A stretch of 64,000 nt of DNA, from NCBI GenBank assembly GCA_002632355.1, contig NSJJ01000007.1, positions 62,001-126,000 on the forward strand, written 5' to 3'. Numbering within the stretch: position 1 is the first letter of the stretch; each line of letters begins with the position of its first letter. The notes beneath the pieces are model-generated. The model saw only the letters and a list, made by a program, of their open reading frames with translations, was not told the DNA's origin and did no database searches. A program made the position numbers and the translations under genes. This stretch comes from Sulfuricella denitrificans (GTDB lineage Bacteria; Pseudomonadota; Gammaproteobacteria; Burkholderiales; Sulfuricellaceae). Of this stretch, positions 1 to 62,577 are shown piece by piece.

Positions 1-160
1 CAAATTGCTCCGCCTTTGCCACGGAGATCATGCCGCCGATCCAGTACCTTGATCCACGCTGCACTGTTTCCAGAATGACGCGCATGGTTGCACGTTTGGA
101 TTTAGGAATGCGGACGTAGGATAGGCCGGCAGGGATTATCTTCGGGAAAGTGATTTGCAT
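1..160 (-). CDS. Partial unknown protein, N-terminus only
   Basis: An open frame on the minus strand starts with an ATG at 160 and runs out of the window, giving 53 residues that begin MQITFPKIIPAG. The residues look protein-like, with several basic and aromatic positions (RIPKSKRAT, GSRYWIGGM), and no stop interrupts the frame. I do not recognise the family. It lies at the outer side of the integrated island, beyond the structured RNA candidate, so it is probably further island cargo. Confidence 0.4.
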   Translation of the reverse strand, partial: MQITFPKIIPAGLSYVRIPKSKRATMRVILETVQRGSRYWIGGMISVAKAEQF

Positions 161-504
161 GCGGCATCCATCGTGGTTTTGATGGTTTGTATAGCAAGCG
201 CATGTGCTTGAAGGCACGATGTGCTTTCAGCGTGTGCGCAGCACACTCATTGATGTTCCAGAGCTTCGCAAACATTTGTCGCTATACGGAACAGGTACGC
301 CCATACCGCAGGAACACAACCGGACGTCAAGAGTCTCGCCGCCAGCCATGGCAGTCGGGACGTGCCAACGTCAAACTGCCAAAAACTCTCTCGCAAATCG
401 CCAATTTTCGGGAGTCTAACCCCCGTCGCGCAGTGCCTCTAGTAGGGCTCGCTGCGTGGCAATGGGCGCTGGAGATAACATCTCCTTCGATCCAATCTAA
501 ACCG
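161..504. other. Gene-free stretch before the structured RNA candidate
   Basis: About 340 bases hold only short, overlapping, mutually incompatible frames on both strands with no convincing ribosome site or family resemblance. I see no gene here. If the plus-strand RNA that follows has its own promoter, it should lie in the right part of this stretch, but I could not pick a convincing -35/-10 pair. Confidence 0.4.
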
Positions 505-1331
505 ACTATGTGAGGTTGGGCGACGCGGAAACGGGAACGCTGGTAACAGCGCAAACCCTGGTCATTCATGAAATCGGGAGTGTCTTTCTTGGACACGCAA
601 GCACCGACGTTGGGATGCGGGAAACCGTATAACGACTGCCACAGAGGTGGGCGTCAGCGCGATGGGCAACCATAGCGAGCCGTCAAGGAGAAATCTGGCG
701 ACGGCGGTACCAGAGCGCGCAAGCGGTCTGGATCGGCGAATAGCTTAAGCCTCTAAACGGGTCCTTCGGGATCCAAAGTGGAATCAATTGAAGCCATAAC
801 CTGGCAGCAGTCCAGGTTGACTAAACTCGGAAACTTTGCCGAGAGTAACCCACCAGCTCTGGAACATCGAGGGGGCGAAATCTGAAATGAAAGTCCGTTA
901 CGGGCTATCGGCAATAGTGAGAGAGTGGCGTTGATTGATGCAGTAGTAATGATCTAACGCGGGAAGGTCTGGGCGGGTGTGATGGGTGGCACCATCTCGA
1001 TTCACCGTAGCCCCCGATGAAAACGGGGTTTACCAGACTGGGAGCGAACCTGATATGGCATCGAAACCATGACGTGATTTAGTCGAAGCGTCATGGGACG
1101 GATGTATCGCCGTAAGGGGTCAGGGGTTAAGTGTGCCTGGCGGCACATGGCAGTGATTCTTTTGTTGGGGAGGATGGCTTGGCGGCCATTTTACCGCATC
1201 CGATCTTGGCGGATCGGGAGGTTTTAAAACAGCAAGACAAGGTCAAGTGGCGCGATGTTTGGGGATGTTGCCCGCATGTTGTACGCGCTGTTTTTTGTTC
1301 ACACCCCCGGTTTTCCGGGGGCTTTTTTCCT
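505..1331 (+). ncRNA. Candidate large structured RNA (unclassified)
   Basis: This stretch has no credible protein gene on either strand but a dense run of hairpins readable on the plus strand: 538-551 with a GTAA loop, 580-596, 615-630 with a GAAA loop, 639-650, 759-774 with a TTCG loop, 798-818 (7 bp), 826-843, 981-996, 1012-1028, 1131-1148 (7 bp) and 1200-1217. It ends at a strong intrinsic terminator. Tetraloop-capped stems strung together with short A-rich joints are typical of large ornate RNAs (group II introns, HEARO/OMEGA RNAs, GOLLD/ROOL classes). No intron-encoded RT, IscB or HNH gene follows, and I could not place it in a named class. The stem at 679-704 (AGCCGTC with GACGGC) is only loosely like group II domain V. 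The boundaries are estimates. Confidence 0.4.
1304..1330 (+). terminator. Rho-independent terminator, plus strand
   Basis: CCCCCGG, a TTTT loop and CCGGGGG are followed at once by CTTTTTT. The T tract is on the plus strand only, so it ends a plus-strand transcript. The only plus-strand candidate upstream is the structured RNA, since hsdR converges from the other side. Confidence 0.75.
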
Positions 1332-1518
1332 GTAACCAGCATATACAGGAGGGGCTGGTGTTCTATCTCTGTTTGCGCCTTCTCCCCCTTTCCCTCTGCT
1401 GACAGGCGAGCATGTGTGTCACGTAATTTTAGGACCTGATTTGCACGTTTGGACGTGTTCATCAATCGCATCACGCCGGGCAACAATAAATATTTCGTCA
1501 ATCAAGCCAACCATAGGA

Positions 1519-3912
1519 TCACTCTCGTACATCATACAAATACCGCTGGAACCCGCTAAAAACCTTCCCGATTTCATCCGGCTTACCCAAATCAGCCATA
1601 GCATCCGCAATCGAGTCGTGATACATCAATTTCAATAGTGGTGTCAGCTTCGCTTGATCAAGTTCTTCGACCCCTTCTGCAACATAGTGCGACAACACAA
1701 AATCCAGAAACACCTGTTGCCGGGAATTAAAACTCTCGCTGATCACAGCCATCGCCCGGTCTGCTCGTTCTTCGCGGGTCAGCGGTTCCAAGGCATAGGC
1801 CACATGCGCCAGCACGTCGAACAGATCGCTCTTCTCGGCGTCGATGATCTTCTGCATTTCAGCCAGTTGATCCTTGCCAAAACCCTTTTCAGACAGCCCC
1901 TCCAGCAACTTTTTGCGGGTATCGGGTGCGCTCCACAGCACCCGCAGGTCATCTTCGTCCTTGAAGAAATCCGGCAGCTTACCGAACAGTGCCTCCATGA
2001 ACTGCTGCGCCGACATGGGTGTGCCATCCGGGTGCCAGAAACTGGTGACCGTCATGTGCTGGATCGTGCGCGATTTTCCATCGGCCAACTGCACCTTCGC
2101 TTTCTTCTTGCACACACAGGGAAGCTGGTGGCATTTTGGGCAGGGGTCTTTCGCGCATTCGCAAGGCGACTTGCCGCAGAGATGGCAGGGCGTTGGGGGT
2201 TCATTGATGCAGACACAGGGGACGTTCTGGCACTTCGCGCATACCTCCGGCTCGATCTGCTCCCCATCCCATTCTGGATCGCTGAAGTTGTGGCTCGCCT
2301 TTACAAAGTCGTAGATCGTGAAGTAATACTTGTCCTGGTATAGGCGCGTGCCGCGCCCGATGATCTGCTTGAACTCAATCATCGAATTGACTGGCCGCAG
2401 CAGCACGATGTTTCTCACATTGCGGGCATCCACCCCGGTCGAGAGTTTCTGTGACGTGGTCAGGATCGTCGGAATGTGCTTCTCGTTATCCTGAAAATCG
2501 CGAAGCCACTGCTCGCCCAACGCACCGTCATTGGCCGTCACCCGGTGGCAGTAGTTCGGATCGGTGCTGGTCTTGATCTGATTGATCAGGTCGCGGATCG
2601 CCAGTGCATGATCCTGTGTGGCGCAGAACACCAGCGTTTTCTCCCGCTGGTCGATCAACGACATGAAAATCTCGACGCGCTTTTTCTCACGCTCCTTGAT
2701 CTCGATGATCTTGTTGAAGTCCGCTTCCTCATACCGCTTGCCGGCCTCGACCTCGCCTTCCACCACCTGGTCGTCTGGCGTGTAGACGTACTCGTCGAGC
2801 GTGGTGGAAATCTGTTTGACACGAAACGGGGTCAGAAATCCGTCGTTGATGCCGTCCTTGAGCGAGTAAATGAACACCGGATCGCCAAAGTACCGGTATG
2901 TATCCACGTTGTCTTTGCGCTTGGGCGTTGCGGTTAAACCAAGCTGCACAGCGGGCGCGAAATACTCCAGGATGCCACGCCAGTTTCCCTCGTCGTTGGC
3001 ACCACCCCGGTGGCATTCGTCGATGACGATAAAATCGAAGAAATCTGGCGGATATTCGCCGAAATAGGGCGAAGGGTGACCGTCCTTCGGTGGCCCGCTC
3101 ATGAAAGTCTGGAAGATGGTAAAGAATATACTGCCATTCTTCGGCACCTTGCCCTTCTTGCGAATGTCCGCCGGGTCGATCCGCACCAGCGCCTTGTCAT
3201 CAAAGGCCGAAAAAGCATTGAATGCCTGATTGGCCAGAATGTTGCGGTCAGCAAGGAACAGGATGCGTGGGCGTCGCGTGGGTTCGCCATTCGCCTTCCA
3301 GTCCGCCAGATTCCACCGGCTGTGAAACAGCTTCCAGGCCAATTGGAAGGCGATGAAGGTCTTGCCCGTACCTGTCGCCAGCGTCAGCAGGATGCGCTCC
3401 TGCCCGGCTGCAATCGCCGCCAGCACACGCTCGATGGCGATATCCTGGTAGTAACGCCCCTGAAAGAATCCGCCCCTGTCCTCGAACGGCACCGCCGCAA
3501 AACAATCCCGCCACACATTCTTGGCGGCAAAGGTCAGGTTCCACAGTTCATCTGGTGACGGATACTTGGCAATCTCTCCTTCCACGGCGGTATCCATGTC
3601 GATGCCGTAGATGCCCTGGCCATTACTGGCATAGGTAAAGCGCAGCGCCAGCTTGCCGGCGTAATCCTTGGCCTGCGCCACGCCTTCCGTCAGCGCCTTG
3701 TCCCGCGCCTTGGCCTCGACCACCCCCAGCTTGGTATTGCGGTATTCCAGAACATAGTCCGCCGTCAGAGGCTTGCCGCGCTTGCCCGCGCCTTCCAGTC
3801 TCCCGAGCGTGATCGGATACTCGCGCCGGATGCGGCTACCTTCGACCACTCCCCAGCCCGCAGCAGCAAGGGCAGGGTCGATATGTTCGGCGCGGGTTTC
3901 AGCTTCGTTCAT
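1519..3912 (-). CDS. hsdR: Type I restriction enzyme subunit R
   Basis: This is the translocase/nuclease subunit of a type I restriction-modification enzyme, about 797 residues. An N-terminal nuclease core (D at TADYVLEY, then VEAKA, the D-E-x-K pattern) precedes the superfamily 2 helicase: Walker A LATGTGKTF near residue 185, DECH box VIDECHRGG, motif III GLTATPKRK and motif VI QIIGRGTRLY. Between the helicase and the C-terminal domain are three tandem Cys-rich units (CAKCQNVPCVC, CHLCGKSPCEC, CPKCHQLPCVC; bases about 2104-2246), which is unusual. I chose the second ATG (3912) because the first, at 3918, is not conserved in the duplicate copy of this start near 9127. It is the last gene of the operon led by hsdM and is separated from hsdS by extra defence genes. 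Confidence 0.93.
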   Translation of the reverse strand: MNEAETRAEHIDPALAAAGWGVVEGSRIRREYPITLGRLEGAGKRGKPLTADYVLEYRNTKLGVVEAKARDKALTEGVAQAKDYAGKLALRFTYASNGQGIYGIDMDTAVEGEIAKYPSPDELWNLTFAAKNVWRDCFAAVPFEDRGGFFQGRYYQDIAIERVLAAIAAGQERILLTLATGTGKTFIAFQLAWKLFHSRWNLADWKANGEPTRRPRILFLADRNILANQAFNAFSAFDDKALVRIDPADIRKKGKVPKNGSIFFTIFQTFMSGPPKDGHPSPYFGEYPPDFFDFIVIDECHRGGANDEGNWRGILEYFAPAVQLGLTATPKRKDNVDTYRYFGDPVFIYSLKDGINDGFLTPFRVKQISTTLDEYVYTPDDQVVEGEVEAGKRYEEADFNKIIEIKEREKKRVEIFMSLIDQREKTLVFCATQDHALAIRDLINQIKTSTDPNYCHRVTANDGALGEQWLRDFQDNEKHIPTILTTSQKLSTGVDARNVRNIVLLRPVNSMIEFKQIIGRGTRLYQDKYYFTIYDFVKASHNFSDPEWDGEQIEPEVCAKCQNVPCVCINEPPTPCHLCGKSPCECAKDPCPKCHQLPCVCKKKAKVQLADGKSRTIQHMTVTSFWHPDGTPMSAQQFMEALFGKLPDFFKDEDDLRVLWSAPDTRKKLLEGLSEKGFGKDQLAEMQKIIDAEKSDLFDVLAHVAYALEPLTREERADRAMAVISESFNSRQQVFLDFVLSHYVAEGVEELDQAKLTPLLKLMYHDSIADAMADLGKPDEIGKVFSGFQRYLYDVRE

Positions 3913-4155
3913 GGTCATTTACCGCCATCGTCAAAACCCAATCAAGAAATAGTTTACGGCATCCGGTTTGTAACTCTTTGGAAAAAATGGACTAGCGACC
4001 CAACTCTGCCCGCTCTCGGCCTGCACAATCAAAACTCGATCAAGAAACTCACGCCCAATGCGGCACATAACCGGCTCGCGGATGATCAGGATCGGCAACA
4101 CGAATCAAACCGGCACCCAGAGTTTTGTTGATCACCCCGGTCGCCTGGGCGGCAT
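3870..4155. repeat. Direct repeat copy A (hsdR start / AlbA gene end)
   Basis: The junction between the end of the AlbA-ATPase gene and the start of hsdR is repeated, in the same orientation but diverged, at 9088-9335. Shared blocks include GGCAGGGTCGATAT, GCGCGGGTTTCAGCTTCGTT, CGCCATCGTCAAAAC, ATCAAGAAACTCACGCCCAA and TTTTGTT followed by a CGGTCGC block. Copy A is the functional one, since it contains intact coding ends. The pair brackets the DUF262-RT-AlbA module. Confidence 0.85.
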
Positions 4156-5506
4156 TCTTGGGATCGATGCCCAGGCGGGCGCAAAGAGAGGCATTTTTCA
4201 TCTTGTCGCCACTGAGAAACTTCAGTACCGCGTGGAAATAACAAGCACGCACCCGCTCATCCTGGGTCATCTCGGCAAAGCTACGCGGCGCGTAAAGCAC
4301 CACCTGCATGGAATTTTCATCTGCTCTTAACAGCGGCGGAGGCAGTTGAAAAACCTCCACCAGGGCAAACACCTTGTCCAGGCCGCTGCCCTGCTCCTCG
4401 CACATCCCCATGCGGCGCATCAGCGAGGCCAGCGCATCATTACGTGACCGGGGCGGCAAATCGATCATGCGATCCGGCTTCACCAGCGAACGACCCGGGT
4501 TGGTGATTTCGATCCGGTCGGAAAACAGCTCAATTTGCGGCCCGGCGCCAGTCACAGTCATATCCTGATGGATAAGGGCATTGGCCACCAACTCACGGAT
4601 CGCCAGTTCAGGGAATAGCGGATGAGCCTCGCGCAGCGCCGCCCCAATATGTTCATTCTTGGGCAGCAGGTCGTTCAGGTAACCGACCAACCCCTCGAAG
4701 CCGACGGCATAGCCCTTCTGTCCATCATGCCGATGGGTGACGGTTGCTGCCCGGTTGTTGCCACCATAGGCCACAAAGCGCACCGCTTTTCTGGCAAGGC
4801 TAGCCTCAAAATCCCCGAGCCGGGTAGCAAACAGAATGGCCCCCAGGTTGGTGATACTCCAGCGGTCGCCCACATCGCGAGCAATCAACCGATCCGCTTC
4901 CAGCCGATCAAAGATGCCGGCACGATTATCTGGCAATGGCTGTCCGGTCAATCGAAAGTACTGGCTGTAGTCGAGCAACGCCAGCACCTCATCCCCCGTG
5001 GCGTACTGGCGAGCGACGCCCTGCTCCCAGCGGTAAGGCTGCATACGCTCAATCAACTGCTGGTAGCGTTGCGGGTAGTCGGTCAGTTTTGGGGTTGCAC
5101 TGCCAATACGGACGTAGGAGATGTTATTGAACGCAACCGGCGTTCCTGTCGCCGCCGGAATCTCAAGTAGCACCACATGCCCCTGGGGATGGTGAACGAC
5201 GCGAAAACCGAAAGCGATACTCGGTTGCAAACTGTTTGCCAGCCATAGCGGCAACACCTGCCCACCGACCTTCTTTGTATCAGGATTGAAGTTCGTGCCG
5301 ATCACCGCATGGCTACCATCCTCGACGCCCCAGACCATGTAGGCACAGTCCCGTCCTTCGATGCGGGCAGAGTTGGACAACGCCGAACACCGTTTGCCGA
5401 TGGCGTCCGGGTCGGTATTGTTGCCCTTGAACTCCAGCCACGGAGTTTCCGCCGACTGGGCGCGAAGTTCGTCAATCAGGGCGATGTCGCGGGCCTCGTT
5501 CGTCAT
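4049..5506 (-). CDS. Schlafen AlbA_2 / GHKL ATPase domain protein
   Basis: This is a predicted nucleic-acid-binding ATPase of 485 residues (COG2865 type). The N-terminal AlbA_2 domain covers about residues 15-140 (ETPWLEFKG; SALSNSARIEGRDCAYMVWG). A C-terminal HATPase_c_4-like region follows, with RELVANALIHQD, ITNPG and EEQGSGLDKV, the ATP-binding motifs of that family. The tail resembles a winged helix. Its ATG overlaps the stop of the RT gene (ATGA), so the two are translationally coupled. Proteins of this kind recur in type I restriction operons and other defence loci, but their biochemical role is not established. A second, decayed copy of its 3' end lies at about 9240-9335. Confidence 0.85.
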   Translation of the reverse strand: MTNEARDIALIDELRAQSAETPWLEFKGNNTDPDAIGKRCSALSNSARIEGRDCAYMVWGVEDGSHAVIGTNFNPDTKKVGGQVLPLWLANSLQPSIAFGFRVVHHPQGHVVLLEIPAATGTPVAFNNISYVRIGSATPKLTDYPQRYQQLIERMQPYRWEQGVARQYATGDEVLALLDYSQYFRLTGQPLPDNRAGIFDRLEADRLIARDVGDRWSITNLGAILFATRLGDFEASLARKAVRFVAYGGNNRAATVTHRHDGQKGYAVGFEGLVGYLNDLLPKNEHIGAALREAHPLFPELAIRELVANALIHQDMTVTGAGPQIELFSDRIEITNPGRSLVKPDRMIDLPPRSRNDALASLMRRMGMCEEQGSGLDKVFALVEVFQLPPPLLRADENSMQVVLYAPRSFAEMTQDERVRACYFHAVLKFLSGDKMKNASLCARLGIDPKNAAQATGVINKTLGAGLIRVADPDHPRAGYVPHWA

Positions 5507-7206
5507 GGCTGGACAACCTCCGGCTGCGACGGCGCCTTCTGAGCAGCACCTCCGACCACTTTGTTTTCAACCTTTGCGGGCATACAGAAAAAATGGAATC
5601 CTTTGCCCTTCAACTTGGCGAGAAAGCCTTGCCCATTTCCCTCAAGCTCCTTCTTTGTCCAAATTTGGTAGATCAACAGCCAATGCTTATCTTTTTCTCT
5701 GGAATCCCCTGCCATTAGATTCTTTGCACGCTTGGTGATTGAGGACTTCACTTTTGGCCGCTTGCGCTTTTTTGCATATTCTAAAAGCAAAACATTAGCG
5801 ATGCAGTCATCCAGGGCAACAATCTCGATCAGTTCATCATCTTTTAGATGGAGCGTGAGGTCATGTTTCAGTGCAAAGTAAAGCGCATGCGCAATTGTGT
5901 CGGGGTAAAGCTTACGGACCCCCAATGACACAAGTGATGTCGCGAAATCGGCGATTCGTTCTTTCAGCCCTTCATGCCAGTACTTGTCGAAAACAAACTC
6001 ATCAAGCAGGGGTGCAAGGTAAGGGTACGCCAGCGCAAGATTCATCGCCTCTTGCGTATACATGCGTTTCGCACGTGGATTAAGTTTACGTGGCTCGTCA
6101 TTCCCGGCAATGGTTTTGATCGCGTAGTTCAAGGGCGTAGACTTGCCTGCCGACTGCGCACATTCCAATGCGAGGTCGAGAAACGAGCGGATGACTGAAA
6201 ATCGAAGTTCTTCGTCCTTGGGAAACAGAAATCGATTGAGCACGAGTCGCCAGTTTTCGTCGCTGGGTCTTGGCAGTGCCAAAATTCGCGTTTTCTTTTC
6301 GTTGAGCGACATCTCATAAGCACGTAGATTCATACCAAGGGTTTTTACAAAAAGCTCGGCCTCATCAAACGTATCGGCAAAGTACCTGTAATCATCCACA
6401 TGCCGCACAACCTTCTCGTATCCACTGGCTTGCAACTCAGTATCGATGCAGGTCAGTACGACTTCCGAAATGATATTTGAGGCATGCGGCCCAATTAGCA
6501 GTCCGTTGGTTTGTCGATCACGGGTGTTCTGCGTGCATTTGTCCAGCAAATTGCCGGCAAGCTTTGTAATGCTACTGGATTTTTTTGCATCGTCTTTACT
6601 ATGGAGTGCCCAGGGAATGACATGAGTGTAGATACTGGGAAAACATGCCGCTATGTCCGCTTCGACGACAAACTTGGCGCCGGCCATCCACTGAATCTCG
6701 CTTTCTTCAAACTGAAAACGTTCGACACCCTTGTAATTCATTTCGAAGATACGACCATCCCCAACATGCCGGACATGGATGCGGCTGATTGCTGGTTTGG
6801 GGTGATTGCAGTGCGTCGCAATCGCCTGCCAATGCTTCGAAATTGCCAGCGCCTGAACTGCATACGCTTCCGGATGAGGGATTCCTAAATGCCGAGGGAC
6901 ATTGGTGTCCCGTAGCGCCTCATACCGAACATAGTCGTGATTACATTTATCAATCTTGCCTTTGAGTTTCAGATCGTCCGTCTCGGTCAGTAAATCGGCC
7001 ATCAACTCGAAGACTATTGCGGTCAGTCCATCGGTAGAAAAGCAAGGTGGAACCTTTTCAGCGAACAATCCATGATCCATCAAACCCGTCAGCACATCTT
7101 CTGGACTCAACTTTTCTTTAGTGGAATCGAACCAGTCAAAATCCAACACAATGTCGAGCAGGTCGCCCATCTTCACTTCGCCCGCTGTGGCTTGAGGTGC
7201 GCTCAT
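5503..7206 (-). CDS. Reverse transcriptase, defence-associated type
   Basis: This is an RNA-directed DNA polymerase of about 567 residues with no intron or retron msr/msd next to it. The RT motifs are in order: motif A EADIAACFPSIYTH, motif B NGLLIGPHASNIISE, motif C RHVDDYRYF (catalytic DD), and LNEKKTRI just after. About 65 residues before the fingers and about 230 helical residues after the palm are unassigned. This layout fits the Abi/UG/DRT group of antiphage reverse transcriptases. I cannot assign a subgroup by eye, although the VDDY form of motif C resembles AbiA- or DRT3-like proteins. The ATG at 7206 overlaps the DUF262 stop (TGATG), and its own stop overlaps the AlbA start, so it is embedded in the restriction operon. 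Confidence 0.85.
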   Translation of the reverse strand: MSAPQATAGEVKMGDLLDIVLDFDWFDSTKEKLSPEDVLTGLMDHGLFAEKVPPCFSTDGLTAIVFELMADLLTETDDLKLKGKIDKCNHDYVRYEALRDTNVPRHLGIPHPEAYAVQALAISKHWQAIATHCNHPKPAISRIHVRHVGDGRIFEMNYKGVERFQFEESEIQWMAGAKFVVEADIAACFPSIYTHVIPWALHSKDDAKKSSSITKLAGNLLDKCTQNTRDRQTNGLLIGPHASNIISEVVLTCIDTELQASGYEKVVRHVDDYRYFADTFDEAELFVKTLGMNLRAYEMSLNEKKTRILALPRPSDENWRLVLNRFLFPKDEELRFSVIRSFLDLALECAQSAGKSTPLNYAIKTIAGNDEPRKLNPRAKRMYTQEAMNLALAYPYLAPLLDEFVFDKYWHEGLKERIADFATSLVSLGVRKLYPDTIAHALYFALKHDLTLHLKDDELIEIVALDDCIANVLLLEYAKKRKRPKVKSSITKRAKNLMAGDSREKDKHWLLIYQIWTKKELEGNGQGFLAKLKGKGFHFFCMPAKVENKVVGGAAQKAPSQPEVVQP

Positions 7207-9002
7207 CACAACACCTCAAACCAGGCCTTGATCTTCAGCGCCATCAGCTTGCGCCGCTCTTCGAGAAAGGCGGGATAGTCGCCTATCGTGCCGTCCAGCA
7301 TCGCCACCGGAATGCAGTTCATTTCCAGGTTGGCCGCCATTTCCGTCTTGTCACTGATGCCGCCGTATTTCTTCGCGCCGCCGCTGCACTGCTCGGCCAG
7401 TTCCTTGAAGTAGCTTGCTGGGGCTTTCGCGCCGATGGTGATGTTTATCTCGCTCTGGGCGATAACGAAATTGGCTATCTGGTTGTAGACGCCGCGTGTC
7501 TTCCCTGCATTCTTGAGGAATTGCTTGGGATACACATGGTGAACGTCGGCCCGGTTGAGCAGCAAATCCGTGACTGTGATGTCGCGGGAGAGAAAGCCCC
7601 GATCTCCCAGCTTGATCTGCGCCGCCTGGTAACACCGGAAATACGGGCTGCTAATCGATGAGGTATCCATGAATTGCGGCAGCATTCCCGTCCAGAAGCT
7701 ATCAGGCAATTCGTTAGGAATGACCGCATCCGTAAACGCTACAACCCCACGACTGTCGATCTGGCGTATGTCGAAATCGAAGGTGGACTCGGGCGAGCCG
7801 CTGTAACGGCCAGTTAGCATGGACATCGCAAACCAGCGCCGAACCATCTTTTCCAGCTCGGCAGCAGGAACATTTTCGCGGCGACCTCGCAGATACAGGA
7901 TGTACGCGAAATTGATCGCATTCTGGCTTCCGATCATGTCACTCAGAATGAAGCCGGCCGAACGCAGGATCATGGTAATGCGGTCAAAATGCGTCTTGTT
8001 GACGAAGGCCAGAATGCCCTGCTTTAGCTTCTCAAACGAGACTTCGGCGATCACATCTTCGTATTGCTTGGTCTCAAAATTTCGGCCAGACAACAGTGCC
8101 ACGAGGTCTTGCAACTTGCCGCGACCGAACTCCGACGTGAATGCTACACGCAGCATGTCCGTATAGCTAGGGTCGTAGATGTCATCGTTCACATCGGCGA
8201 TCCACTTCATCTTGCCGAAGAACTCCGACTCTACAAAGGCATTGTCGCCCTTCTTGATCTTGGCCAGGAACTCCGGGGCAATGGCGAGGTGACAGAAATA
8301 ATCAATGGCTTTGCGCAGCATATTGCCGCCGTAGCTCGTGTTCACCGCAATCTTGGACATCGCAAAGTCCGCTTGCGATAGCGGCGAGCCTGCCGAGTTC
8401 ACTCGAATGAATATCTCGGTGACGGTTTCGATGTCGAGGTCTTCAGCCAGATCAATGATGCCGACGTGGTTGTGAATGATGCCACGCAGCTTCTCGATGA
8501 CCTTGAAGATCTGGTCTTGCGAACTATCGGGATTCGCTGCGCAATAGTCAGCGACCAACTGGAACAGGCTGGTCGAAGGCTCGAAGACCTTGGCAACATC
8601 AGGAATCCATGCCACGTTCTTGCGGATGGCCGGGTTGGCGACCTCGAACCTCTCCTCCTGCGGATTGAACGCAATGCGTATCTGCACCATTTCGTAGTCG
8701 TCTGTCAGTACTTCCACCCCCAGCAAAGACGCCATCAGCGCGGTCACGCGCTGCTGCCCATCAATCAGGATGCGCTTGCCGGTCGAGGTGGAGCCATCTT
8801 TGAGCCGCACAGTAGGGTTGCGCCAGGCAATCAGATAGCCGACCGGATAGCCTTGGTACAGCGAATCAAGAAGGTTGCGCACCTTTGTGGCCTCCCACAC
8901 GAAAGGCCGCTGGATTTCCGGTATCGCGATCTCACCCGACTTCACCCAGGTCAGCAGCGTTTCCACTGGGTGCGGAGTGACAGAGTAGCGTTGGGTTGAC
9001 AT
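7206..9002 (-). CDS. DUF262/DUF1524 GmrSD-like endonuclease
   Basis: This protein is 598 residues long. The N-terminal DUF262 domain has the ParB/Srx-like motif [13 protein letters not shown] near residue 80 and the [10 protein letters not shown] signature. The C-terminal HNH-like DUF1524 region carries [12 protein letters not shown], followed by Asn-rich segments ([16 protein letters not shown]). Fusions of these two domains resemble GmrSD, a modification-dependent (type IV) restriction enzyme that cuts glucosylated hydroxymethylcytosine DNA. It is the first gene of the inserted DUF262-RT-AlbA block and is coupled to the RT gene. The target specificity here is unknown. Confidence 0.85.
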
Positions 9003-9087
9003 GGGTTAGGAGTCCTGTGGGTTGGATGCGTTGTTATATTAGAGTTGGCCGCTGAATACCCGGGTCAGCAGGAATATTCAGATCGAT

Positions 9088-9335
9088 GGGCAGGGTCGAT
9101 ATATTCGGCGCGGGTTTCAGCTTCGTTCATGGTGATTTGTCGCCATCGTCAAAACTCAATCAAGAAATTTCACACTTCAGCCTGTTTGTAACCCGTTGAA
9201 AAATAGGAACTCTCAGTTCAGGCAAGCTGGCTCTCGACCGGCGCAATCAAAACCCGATCAAGAAACTCACGCCCAATGTGGCGCACAACCCGAACCGATT
9301 GTTTTGTTCATTACCTCGGTCGCATGGGCAGCAGT
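9088..9335 (-). pseudogene. Direct repeat copy B: decayed AlbA-gene end plus hsdR start
   Basis: This stretch repeats 3870-4155 in the same orientation. Reading on the minus strand it first shows a worn AlbA-gene tail (9335 to about 9240), with a deletion relative to copy A. It then shows the start of an hsdR-like frame at about 9127: ATG AAC GAA GCT GAA ACC CGC, giving MNEAETRAEYIDPA before homology stops. It is therefore the stub of an older AlbA-hsdR junction left behind when the present DUF262-RT-AlbA block was placed in the operon. It accounts for most of the 443-base gene-free gap between DUF262 and DUF3800. The remaining 110 bases up to 9445 show no gene. Confidence 0.8.
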
Positions 9336-9445
9336 TCCCCCTGGCAAGCCCTATAGTTTTTCCTTGTCCACAACCTTTGGGTTGTTTATACTACGCTCAT
9401 AAGTGGACTGGGGGTTCCCGGTCGGCGTCACGGCCTCGGTGAGTT

Positions 9446-10360
9446 TCATCGGGGCTTTTCGCTTTCTGGTGCTGGAAAAATCTTCAGCCCCCAGTTTTCA
9501 AAGCCCTCGCCTACCTTCTCGCGACCGCCGCTACAGAAAAATTTACGTTTGAGTACATCAAATGCACGGTTCTCCTGATCGGGGCGCAGAACGCTCAAAC
9601 CCACCGGCCTGGCAACCAGGTCTGCCAGCTGTAGACCGGACGAGTTTGTCTTCTTGTCCGCAAAAACGATTTCAAAAGGCAGTCTCTTGCCCAGACGATT
9701 GGCGCCGTCACAGATACGCCGAAATTCCAGTTCCAGATCCTTGTCTTCCTTCGTGCCCCTGCACTCGACCACCACATGGGTCAGGGCGTCGTTCTGGTTT
9801 TTCTCTTGCAGGAACTCGTACAAGGTTTCCAGACAAAAACCCAGCGCCACATGGTACGGATTGGAAAGCCGCTCTGGCCTGTCACGCAGCCGGCTTTTGT
9901 CGATCACACAACTGACCAGGATGAAGTTACTGGCATCGATGATGCCGGTCAACGCTTCCAGGAAATCATGCTTGTGCTGCCGGCTCTGAAACTTGAAGCA
10001 GCCTTTTTCCTTGCGGATTTCATGCTCGTGCAACACCACAAGGTCGTGCCCGAAGTGGTTGAACTTGAACTTCTGCAGGGTGGGTACCACTTTTTCGCTG
10101 TAATGGCGTTTGTAGAACACGCAAAACGACAGCACGAAGACCGGGTAATTGGGGTCTACCGTCTGCATGCCATGATCACCGCTTTCATCCACGTAAACCA
10201 CGAAATTGCTGAATCTGCCAATGGGCGGCGTGCTGGCCACCTCATCGGTCGCATCTGCCGCCTCATTGCTGAACAGAGAGAACTGCTCGGGCGGCGAGCC
10301 TTTGGGAACTGGATCAGCGGGCGGGTTGGTGGCGGGTGGCATCGGTGGCGTCTCTTTCAC
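9446..10360 (-). CDS. DUF3800 domain protein, putative nuclease fold
   Basis: This protein is 304 residues long. After a low-complexity Pro/Ala-rich N-terminus of about 45 residues comes the DUF3800 signature YVDESGDHG. Further acidic positions follow (VVECRGTKEDKDLELEFRRI), and near the end VFADKKTNSSGLQLADLVA, the D-x-L-x-L-A-D-x-V motif of the family. DUF3800 is predicted to adopt an RNase H-like fold and is frequent in defence islands and mobile elements. Its first ATG overlaps the hsdS stop, so it belongs to the restriction operon. A second ATG six codons later is an alternative start. Confidence 0.8.
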   Translation of the reverse strand: MKETPPMPPATNPPADPVPKGSPPEQFSLFSNEAADATDEVASTPPIGRFSNFVVYVDESGDHGMQTVDPNYPVFVLSFCVFYKRHYSEKVVPTLQKFKFNHFGHDLVVLHEHEIRKEKGCFKFQSRQHKHDFLEALTGIIDASNFILVSCVIDKSRLRDRPERLSNPYHVALGFCLETLYEFLQEKNQNDALTHVVVECRGTKEDKDLELEFRRICDGANRLGKRLPFEIVFADKKTNSSGLQLADLVARPVGLSVLRPDQENRAFDVLKRKFFCSGGREKVGEGFENWGLKIFPAPESEKPR

Positions 10361-11484
10361 AGCTGACCCGAGAAAGCTTGGTGCAGCAGGGATTTTTTCA
10401 GGTCGTCCAGTGCGGTCAGCTTTTGCTGGTAAATGGATTCGAGGCGCTGAGTTTCGGTGGCGAGAGCGTCGAGCTTGGATACTATCTGCTCCTGCTCGCC
10501 GAGCGTCTTCGGAAATGAAATCTCAATCGCCTTAAGGAGGCTCGCCTTGATACCTTGCACCGTAGCGCCCGTCCCTTTAGTGCGAATGCGTTGTTGAACA
10601 GGTTGAGAAAGCAGGAGATATTTCAGGAACGTGCTATCGAGCTTTGCCATATCGGGCTGCATGATGATGATGCGTTGAGCGAAAGCAACTTTTTCGTCCG
10701 TGTCGAGTTGCGCCACGTTGGCAAGCGGCGCTTCGGTCGTAAACAGGACGTCACCTTTCTGCGGAATGCCACGAGTCATCCAGCCTTTATAGCCTGCCGA
10801 AGCAATGAATTCCATTGGCTTATCTTGCAGATAACCCATCTTTACGTTTTTTGCCGTAATCAGTCGGATGCCGCTCTCAGTCTTTACTGGTGTCTTGCCA
10901 CGGTAGTCGATGAAGCGGATGCAATCGCCAATGGCCGTTTCTACCCACCCCTCACCCCGCTCCGTGAAAACCGATTGCAGGTGGCTTTCGAACAAGGCGC
11001 GGGCGTTCTGGAGGTTCTTTTCGGCGTTGGCTTTGGCGGTGGCGATGCCATCAAACGCTGCGTCGAGAATGCCGACGATGCGATGCTGTTCTGCTCTGTC
11101 GGGGTACTTGATCTCCAATTCCTTGAGTAACTTGTAATGCCGGGCATACCCAAGGGAATCAAGTTGCGCAGTCTGCAACTGATAGTAGAAGAACTTCGGA
11201 ACAAGAAACTCTTTCGGTGGTAACAGCTTGACGCCATCCGCCCCAAGGACAAAGTCAAAATCGACGTATTTCAGAACCTTGGTGTGATCACCAAAGACCA
11301 CAAGCGGCGTTTCAACTCGGAACACATCATCCGCACCGTCCCAATAGCCGTTGATGAAGGCATCCTCTTGCGACACCACCGGGAATGCCCCCGCATCCAA
11401 GAAATCCTTGCGCTGAATCTTGGTCGTATAGGTGACCTTCTCAATGCAATTCTCGAACGGCTTGGATTGCCACCCCTTCTTCAT
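10357..11484 (-). CDS. hsdS: Type I restriction specificity subunit S
   Basis: This is the DNA-recognition subunit of the type I enzyme, 375 residues, with two target-recognition domains. The first half begins KPFENCIEKVTYTTKIQ and ends in a helical spacer (ILDAAFDGIATAKANAEKNLQNARALFES). The second begins WVETAIGDCIRFIDYRGKTP and ends in a matching spacer (SKLDALATETQRLESIYQQKLTALDDLKKSLLHQAFSGQL). This is the normal circular TRD1-CR1-TRD2-CR2 layout, and the length is typical. Its start overlaps the hsdM stop (ATGA). Confidence 0.93.
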   Translation of the reverse strand: MKKGWQSKPFENCIEKVTYTTKIQRKDFLDAGAFPVVSQEDAFINGYWDGADDVFRVETPLVVFGDHTKVLKYVDFDFVLGADGVKLLPPKEFLVPKFFYYQLQTAQLDSLGYARHYKLLKELEIKYPDRAEQHRIVGILDAAFDGIATAKANAEKNLQNARALFESHLQSVFTERGEGWVETAIGDCIRFIDYRGKTPVKTESGIRLITAKNVKMGYLQDKPMEFIASAGYKGWMTRGIPQKGDVLFTTEAPLANVAQLDTDEKVAFAQRIIIMQPDMAKLDSTFLKYLLLSQPVQQRIRTKGTGATVQGIKASLLKAIEISFPKTLGEQEQIVSKLDALATETQRLESIYQQKLTALDDLKKSLLHQAFSGQL

Positions 11485-12938
11485 GTGAGCAACGCCTTGA
11501 TATTTACCAGTACCTCCGCGCTCTCGGCATCCAGCGCGGCGATCTCGGCCATGATGACCTGCGGACTGCGGTAGGTGACTTCCTCGCCGCCGTTCGGATT
11601 CTTCACCGACAGGTCATAGGTCGCCGTGGCTATGGTCGAGGCATCCACGCTCCAGCTCTTGGGCGAGTCGGCTTTAGTCTTTTTCAATTCGATAAATTCG
11701 GCCAGGTCGGCGTCGTTGAGCGGGTTGGTCTTGCCCATGTTGCGGCCCGGATCGAGCTGGTAGTACCAGATCTTGCGCGTGGGCGATCCCTTCTCGAAGA
11801 ACAGCACGACGGTTTTAACGCCCGCGCCCTGGAAGGTGCCGCCGGGGCAATCGAGGACGGTGTGCAGGTTGCAGGATTCCAGCAGCAGCTTGCGCAGGGA
11901 CACCGAGGCGTTGTCGGTGTTGGAAAGGAAGGTGTTCTTGATGACGATGGCAGCCCGTCCGCCGGCCTTGAGCATCTTGATGAAGTGTTGCAGGAACAGA
12001 AAAGCGGTTTCACCGGTGCGGATCGGGAAGTTCTGCTGCACTTCCTTGCGCTCACCACCTCCAAACGGCGGATTGGCGAGGATCACGTCCATCCGATCCT
12101 TGTCCTGAATGTCGGCCAGGTTCTCAGCCAGGGTGTTGGTGTGGATGATGTTGGGCGCTTCGACGCCGTGCAGGATCATGTTCATGATCGCGATCACATA
12201 GGCCAGCGGCTTCTTCTCCTTGCCGTAGAAGGTCTTTTCTTGCAGCGTCTTGAGGTTATCGGCCGTGAGCTTGGGTTGCTGGCGCAGATGGTCGAAGGCT
12301 TCGCACAAAAAGCCGGCCGAACCACAGGCGCCGTCGTAGATGCGCTCGCCGATCTTGGGCTGCACCACCTGAACCATCGCCCGAATCAGCGGGCGCGGAG
12401 TGTAGTATTCGCCGCCGTTGCGTCCGGCGTTGCCCATGTTCTTGATCTTGGCTTCATACAGGTGCGAGAGTTCGTGCTTCTCGGCCTGCGAACGGAAACG
12501 CAGTTCGTCGATGTGGTCGATGATCTCGCGCAGGGTGTAGCCACTTTGAATCTTGTTCTTGATCTCGCCGAATATCTCGCCGATCTTGTATTCGATGGTG
12601 TTCGGGCCGGTGGCCTTCTGCTTGAAGCCGTGCAGGTAGGGGAACAGCTTGCGATCGACAAACTCACGCAGGTCGTCGCCGGTCTGCGCCTTGTTGTGGT
12701 CGAGCTTGCCTTGACTGTCCTTAGGGGCCGCCCAGGATGACCAGCAATAGGCTTCGTCGAGAATGAAGGTGTATTTTCTGCCCTCCAGTTCGGCCTCCAT
12801 CGCCTTGTCCTGCTCCAGTCCGTCGAGATATTTGAGGAACAACAGCCAGGAAGTCTGCTCGGTGTAGTCGAGTTCGGTAGTACAGCCGGCCTCGTTGCGC
12901 AGGTCAGCGTCGATATTCTTGAAGGCTTGTTCAAACAT
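11481..12938 (-). CDS. hsdM: Type I restriction modification subunit M
   Basis: This is the N6-adenine DNA methyltransferase subunit, about 485 residues. An N-terminal helical domain (MFEQAFKNIDADLRNEAGC, TELDYTEQTSWLLFLKYLDGL) leads into the SAM-binding motif YDGACGSAGFL and the catalytic motif NPPFGGGE. I start it at MFEQAFKN because family members begin there, although no Shine-Dalgarno sequence is visible. The open frame continues 58 codons upstream into a fragment of an IS3-type transposase that is not part of HsdM. Confidence 0.93.
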   Translation of the reverse strand: MFEQAFKNIDADLRNEAGCTTELDYTEQTSWLLFLKYLDGLEQDKAMEAELEGRKYTFILDEAYCWSSWAAPKDSQGKLDHNKAQTGDDLREFVDRKLFPYLHGFKQKATGPNTIEYKIGEIFGEIKNKIQSGYTLREIIDHIDELRFRSQAEKHELSHLYEAKIKNMGNAGRNGGEYYTPRPLIRAMVQVVQPKIGERIYDGACGSAGFLCEAFDHLRQQPKLTADNLKTLQEKTFYGKEKKPLAYVIAIMNMILHGVEAPNIIHTNTLAENLADIQDKDRMDVILANPPFGGGERKEVQQNFPIRTGETAFLFLQHFIKMLKAGGRAAIVIKNTFLSNTDNASVSLRKLLLESCNLHTVLDCPGGTFQGAGVKTVVLFFEKGSPTRKIWYYQLDPGRNMGKTNPLNDADLAEFIELKKTKADSPKSWSVDASTIATATYDLSVKNPNGGEEVTYRSPQVIMAEIAALDAESAEVLVNIKALLT

Positions 12939-13019
12939 GAGGGAGGAGAGTTCCGAAAGCGAGCAACAAAGGGGCCACTCTACTGGAATTGATGCCGCCG
13001 GACAAACATTGAACAACAC

Positions 13020-13073
13020 ATTGTCATGGCAATTCCCTTTTCGTGAAACAGATCCTACTATCGCCGTTAAGTA
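13020..13073 (-). pseudogene. IS3-family transposase scar
   Basis: Just upstream of hsdM and in the same open frame is the peptide YLTAIVGSVSRKGNCHDN. The segment GSVSRKGNCHDN matches the strongly conserved GSMSRKGNCxDN block in the DDE region of IS3-family OrfB. Only about 20 residues remain, and neither the flanking catalytic residues nor terminal repeats are present. It marks a past insertion at the hsdM promoter side. The rest of the 271-base gap (12939-13209) shows no gene. Confidence 0.65.
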
Positions 13074-13209
13074 TGCTCCTCCCCGGCCAGGCCCTTCCCG
13101 CCGTTGCGCCATGCTGGCTAGAAATCCCCCACATCATCACCGAATGTGGTAACGCTTGCGAGTTCCTGCTTGTGGACGTTTGTGACAGTCTCATCAAAAT
13201 CCCAGGCAT

Positions 13210-14583: not shown

Positions 14584-14660
14584 TGGTGGGCCCGCACGGA
14601 CTTGAACCGTGGACCAAAGGATTATGAGTCCTCTGCTCTAACCAACTGAGCTACAGGCCC
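14584..14660 (-). tRNA. tRNA with CAT anticodon, probably tRNA-Ile2
   Basis: The minus strand folds into a complete cloverleaf: acceptor GGGCCTG paired with CGGGCCC, D-arm GCTC/GAGC, anticodon stem GAGGA/TCCTT with loop CTCATAA, T-arm CACGG/CCGTG with TTCAAGT, discriminator A, and an encoded CCA at 14584-14586. The anticodon CAT means elongator Met or lysidine-modified Ile2. The pairs C4-G69 and C5-G68, known positive determinants for TilS in E. coli tRNA-Ile2, favour Ile2. The adjacent integrase makes its 3' half the probable island attachment site. Confidence 0.9.
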
Positions 14661-55667: not shown

Positions 55668-56975
55668 ATGAAAAACACGGATTACCTGCAACGCAGCCTG
55701 AATTCGGTCTGGCACCCCTGCAGCCAGATGAAGCACTTCGAAACCCTGCCGCTCATCCCCATCGCCCGGGGAGAGGGCATGTGGCTGTATGATTTCGAGA
55801 ACAGGCGCTATCTGGATGCCATCAGCTCGTGGTGGGTCAACCTGTTCGGCCATTGCAACCCGCGTATCAATGCCGCCCTCAGGGACCAGCTCGACCGGCT
55901 GGAGCATGTCATCCTGGCCGGATTCACCCACCAGCCGGTGATCGAGCTTTCCGAGCGTCTGTCCGCGCTCACAGGACTCGGGCACTGCTTCTACGGTTCG
56001 GATGGGGCTTCGGCCACGGAAATCGCGCTCAAGATGAGTTTCCATTACTGGCGCAATAACGACCAGCCGGAAAAAACCCGCTTCATCAGCCTGCAGAACA
56101 GCTACCACGGCGAAACCATCGGCGCGCTTTCCGTCACCGATGTCGCCCTGTTCAAGGATACATACGCCCCGCTGCTGCGCCAGAGCACCCAGGTACCGAC
56201 ACCCGACTGGCGCTACGCCGAAAAGGGAGAATCCGCGCGCGATTTCGCGACCCGCTGCGCCATGCAGTTGCGCGCCCATCTCGAACAGCATCATGGCGAG
56301 ACCGCCGCCTTCATCATCGAACCGCTGGTGCAGGGTGCCGCCGGCATGGGCATGTACGACGCCGAATACCTGCGTCAGGCACGGGCGATCTGCGACGAGT
56401 TCAAGGTCCATCTTATTGCCGATGAAATTGCCGTCGGATTCGGCCGCACCGGGACAATGTTTGCTTGCGAACAGGCCGGCATCCGGCCCGATTTCATGTG
56501 TTTGTCCAAAGGGATCAGCGGCGGCTACCTGCCGCTTTCCGCAGTGCTGACCACGGATGCAGTTTTTCAGGCCTTTTATCACGACGAAACGGCAAAAGGC
56601 TTCCTGCATTCCCACTCCTACACCGGCAACGCGCTGGCCTGCCGCGCCGCGCTGGCGACGCTGGACATCTTCGAGCAGGACGGGGTGATCGAAGCCAACC
56701 GCATCAAGGCCGAATATTTCAACCGGGCCGCACAAGCGCTGCGCGAGCACCCCAGGGTGAAGAATTTCCGCCACAGCGGCATGATCTGGGCTTTTGAAGT
56801 CGAGAGCAGCACGCCCCACTTTTCGCGCGCCTTCTACCAACGGGCGCTGCAACACGAACTGCTGCTGCGCCCGATGGGCAACACGGTGTATTTCATGCCG
56901 CCCTATATCATCAGCGAAGAAGAAATCAACTTCCTAATCAGCGGCACACTCAAAATTCTGGAACAACCATGTTAG
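55668..56975 (+). CDS. bioA: Adenosylmethionine-8-amino-7-oxononanoate aminotransferase
   Basis: This is a biotin-pathway PLP enzyme that converts KAPA to DAPA with SAM as amino donor; 435 residues. It has [58 protein letters not shown] and the PLP lysine in [12 protein letters not shown]. No other bio gene is adjacent. It overlaps tsaD by seven bases, an unusual pairing. Confidence 0.95.
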
Positions 56976-60861: not shown

Positions 60862-62577
60862 TTAGGCTATCCCCGGATTACCCTCAACCCCAACCAGCTT
60901 GGGCATATTGAGTTTGCGCGGCGTGATCACCTTCTTGTCGCGCAGCCATGTCGATACCACGTCCCAGATCGGCTCCCCGCTCACGCCCTCGCCCACGGGC
61001 GCCCAACCAGCCACCTTGTAAGTCTTGTTGGGACTGACGGGCTTGCCTTTGAGTGTCATGTTGCTGATGCGCTTGCCGATCTTCTGGCGCGGATCGCAGG
61101 TGTACTGAATGCCTCCTACGCGCACCATGTCGCCGCCCTGCTGGTAATAGGGATCGGCATTGAACAGGTTGTCGCACACGTCTTCCATGATGGTCTTGAT
61201 GGTTTCGCCGGTCATTTCGGTCAGGGTGGTGGCCGGGTAGGTGATGGCGGTCTGGTCCATCAGGCGCTCCATGGTAATGGCTTCGCCCGGCAGCAGCGTG
61301 GTGCCCCAGCGGAATCCGGGCGAGAAAGCCGCATCGGCGCCCTTCACATCCATCAGGGCATCCAGGATCAGCTGGTCGAAAGTGCCGTTGAAATTGCCGC
61401 GACGGTAGAGCAGGTCTTCCGTCACCGCCAGTTTCTCGTTCAGCTTGGCTTCGTATGGCGCGCGATGCTTGTTGATCAGCGCCGTCATGGCCGGGTCGGC
61501 TTCGAGCAGATTGGAGAATACCGGCAACAGCTTGTAGCGGTAATCACTGACCTTGCCATCTTTCACATCAAAATCCAGCACACCGAGGAACTTGCCGTTC
61601 GAGCCGGCATTGGTCACCAGCGTCTGGCCTTTGGCATTCTTCACGATGGCGGGTGCTGGAACACCATCGTGAGTATGACCGCCCATGATGGCGTCGATGC
61701 CGGTGACGCGGCTGGCCATTTTGAGATCCACGTCCATGCCGTTGTGGGATATGACCACCACCACCTGGGCGCCTTTGGCGCGTGCCTCATCCACAATCTT
61801 CTGCATGTTCTCATCCTGGATGCCGAAGCTCCAGTCCGGTACCATCCAGCGTGGGTTGGCGATCGGCGTATAGGGGAATGACTGGCCAATGATGGCCACC
61901 GGCACCCCGTTCATTTCCTTCATGGTGTAGGGCTTGAACACCTGGTCACCGAAATCGTTGGTCTTGATATTCTGCGCCACGAAATCGACCGTACCCTTGA
62001 AATCGTTATCCACGATCTGCTTCACGCGCTCGGCGCCGAGGGTAAATTCCCAGTGGCCGGTCATGACATCCACGCCGAGCAGTTTGCAGGCATCGACCAT
62101 ATCCTGGCCGTTGCTCCACAAGGCCGTAGCCGAACCCTGCCAGGTATCGCCGCCATCCAGCAGCAGCGCGCCCGGACGCGAAGCGCGCATTTTTTTCACC
62201 AGTGTGGAAAGATGGGCGAAGCCACCGACCTTGCCGTAGGTTTTTGCAGCGGCGGAGAAATCCAGATAGGTAAAGGCATGCGCCTCCGAAGTACCCGGCC
62301 GGATGCCGAATTGCTTGAGCAGCTTCTCGCCCACCAGGTGTGGCGCCTTGCCAAAATTCGTGCCCAGGCCGATATTCACATTCGGCTCGCGAAAATAAAT
62401 CGGCATCAACTGTGCGTGGGAGTCGGTGATATGCAGGAAACTGACATTGCCGAATTTTGGCACATCGTAAAACTGTCCACCTTGTGCCGAGGCCAGAGCA
62501 AATTTGCAGTTGAGCGCAAAACCGGTTGCGCTCGCCGCAGCCAGAAGCTGCAGAAATTCACGGCGATTCATGGACAT
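60862..62577 (-). CDS. soxB: Thiosulfohydrolase SoxB
   Basis: SoxB is the periplasmic dimanganese hydrolase that releases sulfate from SoxY-bound intermediates in thiosulfate oxidation; 571 residues. A twin-arginine signal (NRREFLQLLAAASATGFAL) leads into the 5'-nucleotidase fold (FLHITDSHAQLMPIYFRE, LLDGGDTWQGSATAL, VISHNGMDVDLKMA, IMGGHTHDGVPAP). It is the distal gene of the readable soxYZAB run. Confidence 0.96.
   Translation of the reverse strand: MSMNRREFLQLLAAASATGFALNCKFALASAQGGQFYDVPKFGNVSFLHITDSHAQLMPIYFREPNVNIGLGTNFGKAPHLVGEKLLKQFGIRPGTSEAHAFTYLDFSAAAKTYGKVGGFAHLSTLVKKMRASRPGALLLDGGDTWQGSATALWSNGQDMVDACKLLGVDVMTGHWEFTLGAERVKQIVDNDFKGTVDFVAQNIKTNDFGDQVFKPYTMKEMNGVPVAIIGQSFPYTPIANPRWMVPDWSFGIQDENMQKIVDEARAKGAQVVVVISHNGMDVDLKMASRVTGIDAIMGGHTHDGVPAPAIVKNAKGQTLVTNAGSNGKFLGVLDFDVKDGKVSDYRYKLLPVFSNLLEADPAMTALINKHRAPYEAKLNEKLAVTEDLLYRRGNFNGTFDQLILDALMDVKGADAAFSPGFRWGTTLLPGEAITMERLMDQTAITYPATTLTEMTGETIKTIMEDVCDNLFNADPYYQQGGDMVRVGGIQYTCDPRQKIGKRISNMTLKGKPVSPNKTYKVAGWAPVGEGVSGEPIWDVVSTWLRDKKVITPRKLNMPKLVGVEGNPGIA

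Follow-up and report, generated by a model that had tools for sequence, protein, structure and literature searches.

Near the start of the window, by which is meant the whole 64,000-nt stretch of Sulfuricella denitrificans DNA analysed here (contig NSJJ01000007.1, positions 62,001 to 126,000), the plus strand from 417 to about 1328 very probably specifies a T-large RNA, a ribozyme of the circularly permuted (CP) group II class, adjoining its partner gene acpG. Large natural ribozymes are few, and we know of no biological job for this class. The first-pass annotation had proposed a large structured RNA on the plus strand of 505-1331, ending at a terminator of its own, and covariation among homologues as well as a named family now back this proposal. 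The interval itself starts too late: the start of the RNA is near 417, and domain 5 (D5), domain 6 (D6), the 3' splice site and the branch point all fall outside 505-1331. The first ~90 nt, the upstream partner gene and the identity of the family had been missed.

CP group II ribozymes, also known as "T-large" RNAs, were described as a class by Roth et al. (2021; PMC8637638). According to the main text of that paper, the RNAs measure ~900 nt and are found in Thermus, Firmicutes and Proteobacteria, on plasmids and on chromosomes; D5-D6 lie 5' of domain 1 (D1), the 5' splice-site motif is GGGCG, and a linker of 15-86 nt leaves as a circle. The class is further characterised by the splice-site motif NU as counterpart to GGGCG, by P2-D2, D3-D1 and P1-3' end pseudoknots, and by epsilon-epsilon' and delta-delta'. 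The published partner gene is acpG, which is often divergent. The RNA of Polaromonas plasmid pPNAP05, with a linker of 32 nt, is a member active in vitro; in P. naphthalenivorans cells, the main text reports that expression was detected and processed RNA was not. A search of the literature found no further paper on the class.

Anatomy and class of the RNA

The window RNA is divided as follows.

417-1328 (+): predicted CP group II transcript, comprising a core (419-1127), a hairpin tail and a terminator (37-sequence alignment A4, RNAalifold, profile and covariance-model matches)
419-423/1123-1127 (+): outermost helix (RNAalifold)
427-458 (+): D5, with the triad 427-429, five pairs, a 2-nt bulge at 449-450, and an upper stem and loop (alignment, pair counts)
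464-493 (+): D6, with bulged A490 as the predicted branch point; the A490 column is unpaired between paired columns (RNAalifold)
between 496 and 497 (+): predicted 3' splice site, set after a conserved AAT
497-517 (+): linker between the inverted splice sites, a predicted 21-nt RNA circle, by the rule that gives the published 32 nt in pPNAP05
512-517 (+): IBS1, GAGGUU, the last 6 nt of the linker, pairing with 863-868
between 517 and 518 (+): predicted 5' splice site, set before GGGCG
518-522 (+): 5' splice-site motif GGGCG, the start of D1 (GGGCGAC is invariant in 37/37 aligned RNAs)
524-1127 (+): D1-D4 region (RNAalifold, alignment)
524-527/958-961 and 1046-1051/1116-1121 (+): long-range helices (RNAalifold)
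863-868 (+): EBS1, AACAUC, in the loop of hairpin 849-855/870-875 (best column for IBS1 pairing)
981-996 (+): internal hairpin with a UGGC loop core (hairpin-loop scan)
1131-1148 (+): tail hairpin 1 with a UGGC loop core (hairpin-loop scan)
1171-1192 (+): tail hairpin 2 with a UGGC loop core (hairpin-loop scan)
1199-1218 (+): tail hairpin 3 with a UGGC loop core (hairpin-loop scan)
1304-1328 (+): intrinsic terminator with seven G-C pairs, a 4-nt loop and a T tract (sequence)

D5 (427-458) and D6 (464-493) precede the GGGCG motif at 518. The RNA has the D5/D6 architecture, the branch adenosine and the EBS1-IBS1 pairing in common with canonical bacterial group II introns; it differs from these in its permuted domain order, its internal, inverted splice sites and the absence of an intron-encoded reverse transcriptase (RT), no intron-type RT being found within it. 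With the CP group II RNAs of the published main text (PMC8637638) it shares a length of ~900 nt, D5-D6 before D1, GGGCG, a short linker, EBS1-IBS1 and a divergent acpG, as well as occurrence on plasmids and chromosomes.

The assignment to this class draws on matches to published members and to the partner protein. A five-seed nucleotide profile, built from the window RNA and four relatives, matches the pPNAP05 RNA with an E-value of 1.4e-44, and if the 3' site is taken to follow the conserved AAT and the 5' site to precede GGGCG, the linker there comes to exactly the published 32 nt. A covariance model of D5-D6, trained on neither of the two, matches pPNAP05 at 5.8e-25 and Thermus thermophilus pTT8 at 6.1e-7; in the latter case, strand and side relative to TTHC007 are as published, i.e. 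divergent. T. aquaticus pTA14 is matched at 9.9e-6 by the D5-D6 model. By nucleotide profile alone, the match to the Thermus pTT8 RNA is unconvincing (E 0.09). An AcpG profile that includes the protein from this genome reaches 2.5e-11 with TTHC007 and 1.1e-41 with the pPNAP05 protein. It is the pPNAP05 match, the agreement on 32 nt, the pTT8 and pTA14 matches and the link from AcpG to TTHC007 that together identify the window RNA as a CP group II RNA.

Rfam 15 gives the RNA no name. At the gathering score, the whole window returns tRNA only, and at E<=5 window 1-1600 has no credible match to any family, including HEARO, GOLLD, ROOL and group II; PhotoRC-I (E 0.068) and NsiR1 (E 4.4), which appear in that listing, are at chance level and far under the gathering score. 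The lack of an Rfam match explains why CP group II genes stay unannotated. Group II introns, HEARO/OMEGA RNAs, GOLLD and ROOL had been named in the first-pass annotation as possibilities for a covariance search. The group II suggestion holds in that the RNA is a permuted relative, which the Rfam models do not detect, and the suggestion of HEARO, GOLLD or ROOL falls away. That the RNA should be GOLLD, ROOL or a HEARO/omega RNA, or a fragment of a canonical group II intron, is extremely improbable: similar size and a setting in mobile DNA speak for such a reading, and the Rfam result, the order of D5-D6 before GGGCG and D1, and the missing intron-type RT speak against it.

Conservation of the fold and predicted chemistry

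The hairpins with tetraloops GTAA at 543-546 (stem CGCTG/CAGCG), GAAA at 621-624 (stem ATGCGG/CCGTAT) and TTCG at 765-768, which the first-pass annotation had named, are present as described, and so is the plus-strand terminator, CCCCCGGTTTTCCGGGGG followed by CTTTTTT at 1304-1321. Folded as a single sequence, 417-1331 reaches -361.2 kcal/mol, compared with a mean of -329.1 (sd 10.5) for 20 shuffles (z -3.05), one of which (1/20) folded as well. Since the fold is only moderately unusual by energy, energy alone is insufficient, and the comparison between homologues is decisive.

For the 37 aligned RNAs of A4, RNAalifold gives 94 pairs, 87 of which have at least one sequence in which both partners have changed and pairing is kept. 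Once mostly-gap columns are taken out, leaving 815, there are 162 pairs, 134 of them double-changed, at an energy of -271.8; these structures are scored on their own source alignment, and the control is a set of 15 column-shuffled alignments, which reach -62.1 (sd 7.7) and a mean of 22.6 double-changed pairs (sd 3.7). The covariation among homologues that the first-pass annotation had suggested looking for is thus present. In a 19-sequence alignment of the 5' part (D5-D6), 97.9% of cells are paired, as against 42-48% with slid partners, and 0/500 shuffles attain any of five measures. On alignment A6, D5 has 12 pairs (99.6% of cells paired, eight with double changes) and D6 has 11 (96.2% paired, nine with double changes). 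Five loci (L080, L078, L076, L030 and L027) were left out of A4, and L066 and L068 out of A6. Before counting, L082 and L087, which lie on the same contigs as L015 and L016, were dropped, as were iterative-profile segments under score 50; iterated-profile scores are circular for training sequences and were not counted as evidence.

The same comparison bears on the idea that the region is decayed coding DNA, which had been denied from the outset and can be regarded as practically negligible. Some translations of open reading frames (ORFs) over the RNA are alike among the close relatives L002, L003 and L014, as conserved DNA in any case predicts; against this, the pattern of change tracks base pairing. 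ORFs of at least 60 aa overlap only the two ends of 417-1331, with none wholly inside and none touching 597-1126.

The picture of an intact ribozyme is somewhat complicated by a few departures from consensus. The window agrees with the consensus at 99/103 near-invariant columns; the exceptions are 427 (A>C, common to L014), 1055, 1056 and 1113, and full activity is not certain for this reason. Column 427 belongs to the D5 triad, which is CGC in the window and L014 and AGC in the other 35/37 sequences, the five pairs and the 2-nt bulge being present. Active group IIC introns can have a CGC triad. AGC is also the triad of the published RNAs, as given in the main text (PMC8637638); the case adds to the class a member with a CGC triad, located in a chromosomal tRNA-Met island with defence genes alongside. 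These four departures, one of them in the catalytic triad, and the occurrence of the RNA as a single copy in the genome could suggest a relic whose activity has been lost in this genome. This is unlikely in view of what has been kept: the consensus at 99/103 columns, the splice-site motifs, the branch A, EBS1-IBS1, the terminator and an open acpG frame. Moreover, the triad change is found in the intact-looking L014 as well, and has its pairing partner on the opposite side of the stem (C-G).

EBS1-IBS1 pairing is a further conserved element. In 36/37 sequences, five or six of six pairs can form, G-U allowed. The EBS1 column has a mean of 5.2 of 6 pairs with the linker end, compared with a mean of 2.5 (sd 0.63) for other columns and 4.2 for the next best. 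A simple linker pattern is matched in 29/42 loci, with lengths of 15-64 nt, although two of these (L061 and L089) are visibly mis-parsed. The six-mers vary to different extents: seven are seen for EBS1, with 33 of the 37 sequences falling into three types, and 18 for IBS1. The much greater constancy of EBS1 relative to IBS1 is an argument against free retargeting.

Read together with the published in-vitro work on relatives, the preserved parts allow us to infer with high confidence that the chemistry would be that of the published members, and the window copy is presumably transcribed and active. The 2'-OH of branch A490 in D6 would attack the 5' splice site between 517 and 518. EBS1-IBS1 pairing would keep U517 in place, and its newly freed 3'-OH would then attack the 3' splice site between 496 and 497, releasing the 21-nt linker 497-517 as a circle. 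D5-D6 would remain joined to D1-D4, in a 2'-5' branched RNA ending at the terminator.

The partner gene, the island and the spread of relatives

Three features define the surroundings of the RNA.

1-217 (-): 5' part of acpG, a 287-codon frame with a GTG start at 217 and an alternative ATG at 160, extending past the edge of the window as far as contig position 61354
5503-7209 (-): DRT4-type RT (best PADLOC match, E 3.6e-157)
14584-14629, and contig 55991-56036: perfect 46-bp direct repeat, the 3' part of a tRNA-Met gene, bounding an island

The gene facing away from the RNA, acpG, is conserved at most of the RNA loci compared. The protein from this genome aligns with eight relatives that adjoin RNAs (alignment A1), and it resembles the TTHC007 family both by profile homology and by linkage to the RNA. 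It has no match at E<=1 in Pfam, PHROGs or NCBIfam, and an AF2 model of a relative (pLDDT 74, pTM 0.64) has no PDB match at E<=0.001.

RNA and gene lie in a 20.6-kb integrative island at tRNA-Met (contig 55991-76629), of which window 14584-14629 is the right repeat. The island contains acpG, the RNA, a type I R-M operon with the DRT4-type RT, SLFN_AlbA_2, GmrSD_N and DUF3800 proteins, and a phage-type integrase. The operon (1519-13112) holds the DRT4-type RT together with genes for GmrSD_N (DUF262), SLFN_AlbA_2 and DUF3800 proteins, and the RNA is convergent with hsdR; the earlier placing of the RNA beside a restriction/RT operon is therefore accurate. The nearby RT was considered as a partner of the RNA and rejected, as no RT homologue occurs near 11 other loci compared. 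Within 7 kb, the only window ORFs to have relatives at these 11 loci are acpG and those that overlap either acpG or the RNA. In the left part of the island, a 520-aa protein (L013 4228-5790) resembles a phage or plasmid primase-helicase by eye. The first about 50 residues of the hsdM frame (window about 12940-13112, minus strand) resemble a transposase remnant (SVSRKGNCHDN), and the true hsdM start is therefore probably downstream.

The RNA is present in a single copy in the genome, and relatives are found on many small plasmids. A blastn search with the window RNA finds two small acetic-acid-bacterial plasmids, and matches in 10 of 300 genomes of the same order, its own included. Nine of these ten represent collinear fragments of a single RNA. 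The remaining one, L006, is spurious: at L006/L022 the match is confined to 31 nt (94%) of 1268-1298, and neither the RNA nor acpG is there. This segment is matched by L022 9609-9639 (reverse complement) in an unrelated genome. No blastn match was found in phages; an exact-pattern scan of viral contigs gave 0, and of two AcpG scans of viral contigs, one gave 70 pattern matches, none confirmed, and the other 0. The AcpG family search yielded 28 and 13 plasmid records, 30/399 genomes of the order and nine named loci.

RNA and gene can each be used to retrieve the other. Among loci fetched by AcpG, 29/35 hold the RNA according to the five-seed profile, and 31/35 with the D5-D6 model, which adds L030 and L079; in 612,890 bases of reversed sequence, the profile has 0 hits. 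Neither model finds the RNA at the remaining 4/35 (L027, L029, L075 and L086), and the contig ends at L086. Conversely, 9/12 loci fetched by the RNA hold acpG, the exceptions being the spurious L022 and two complete plasmids, L002 and L003, which have the RNA without acpG. Both are present at 38 loci, at 31 of which they are divergent in linear coordinates. On pKHC110_1 (L003) there are two copies of a 16-base stretch identical to window 955-970, one on each side of the record start and separated by about 130 bases; part of the RNA seems to be duplicated there, judging by the overlap of profile pieces.

In Escherichia coli, blastn with the window RNA itself finds no match. With L028, the RNA of an E. 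coli plasmid, as the query, the RNA is detected in 21/5,426 genomes, in 23 places on plasmids and 0 on chromosomes. On E. coli plasmids of about 30 kb, the RNA is accompanied by a divergent acpG (the pair lies at L028 10920-11741, minus strand, and 12034-12726, plus strand); no annotated feature lies beneath the RNA among the eight records listed. E. coli plasmids and the cryptic Pseudoalteromonas plasmid pMtBL (L024) are carriers in tractable hosts.

The UGGC-loop hairpins and the possible role of the RNA

Hairpins with UGGC in the middle of a six-base loop number 139 in the 42 loci, where dinucleotide shuffles would lead one to expect 3.8. None of the other 256 possible four-base loop cores is as frequent as UGGC; GAAA comes next, with 57. 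The number per locus varies from 0 to 6, and the stems vary while the loop core is constant. In the rest of the window, such hairpins occur at 0.09 per kb and strand. The pPNAP05 RNA, which is outside the 42 loci, has four, and the 1,964-base region beside TTHC007 on pTT8 has one. Repeated UGGC-core hairpins set the family of the window RNA apart from the published description, in that neither the word UGGC nor the word hairpin occurs in the main text of PMC8637638, although its figures may show them.

One reading would have every UGGC loop dock to a conserved GCCA in D1. However, L083, L017 and L015 are without GCCA at that place (by eye) yet keep the loops, so a D1 GCCA dock cannot be the sole reason for them. 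The array probably provides putative docking sites for protein. In the proteobacterial RNAs, where the array is mostly in the 3' tail, AcpG is the first candidate for the docked protein; it is possible, and put forward here tentatively, that the resulting ribonucleoprotein, rather than the small circle, aids the persistence of the plasmid or island. L002 and L003 keep UGGC hairpins without acpG, which means that AcpG need not bind them, or acts from elsewhere. A repeated hairpin loop could lead to the protein partner, and should the array serve as a docking platform, the purpose of the CP group II RNA becomes testable by pull-down and deletion.

Candidate roles given in the main text of PMC8637638 are help to mobile elements, defence, and trans effects on transcripts. 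The role that we would prefer, with weak support, is a trans-acting ribonucleoprotein with a fixed target. Conceivably, its core would be the branched RNA, with AcpG or else a host protein holding it by the UGGC hairpins, and the particle would serve plasmid or island persistence; this might be so, and is offered as a suggestion.

A different role would be that of a replication RNA belonging to an integrated plasmid, as a primer or antisense system of the ColE1 type. The many small plasmids that carry relatives could be taken to favour it, and the authors of pMtBL proposed a ColE1-like mechanism for its origin, according to the available text of their account. It is nevertheless highly improbable, for the evidence from pMtBL itself points the other way. 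The minimal origin (1918-2759) replicates alone, as stated in the same text, and the CP group II RNA, at 3116-3765, is outside it; replication does not need the RNA. Other carriers have differing annotated replication proteins (RepL, TrfA, RepB), and the window copy is in a chromosomal island with an integrase.

Regarding the trans-acting ribonucleoprotein and its suggested part in persistence, pMtBL offers a further observation. Its orf1 (110-817), called hypothetical in the available text of the published accounts, is acpG, and the main text of PMC8637638 makes no mention of this RNA-acpG pair outside the origin. According to the accounts available, a full-length pMtBL vector is fully stable and an origin-only vector is lost, a difference assigned to partition genes. 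Besides the partition genes, the origin-only vector also lacks the RNA and acpG.
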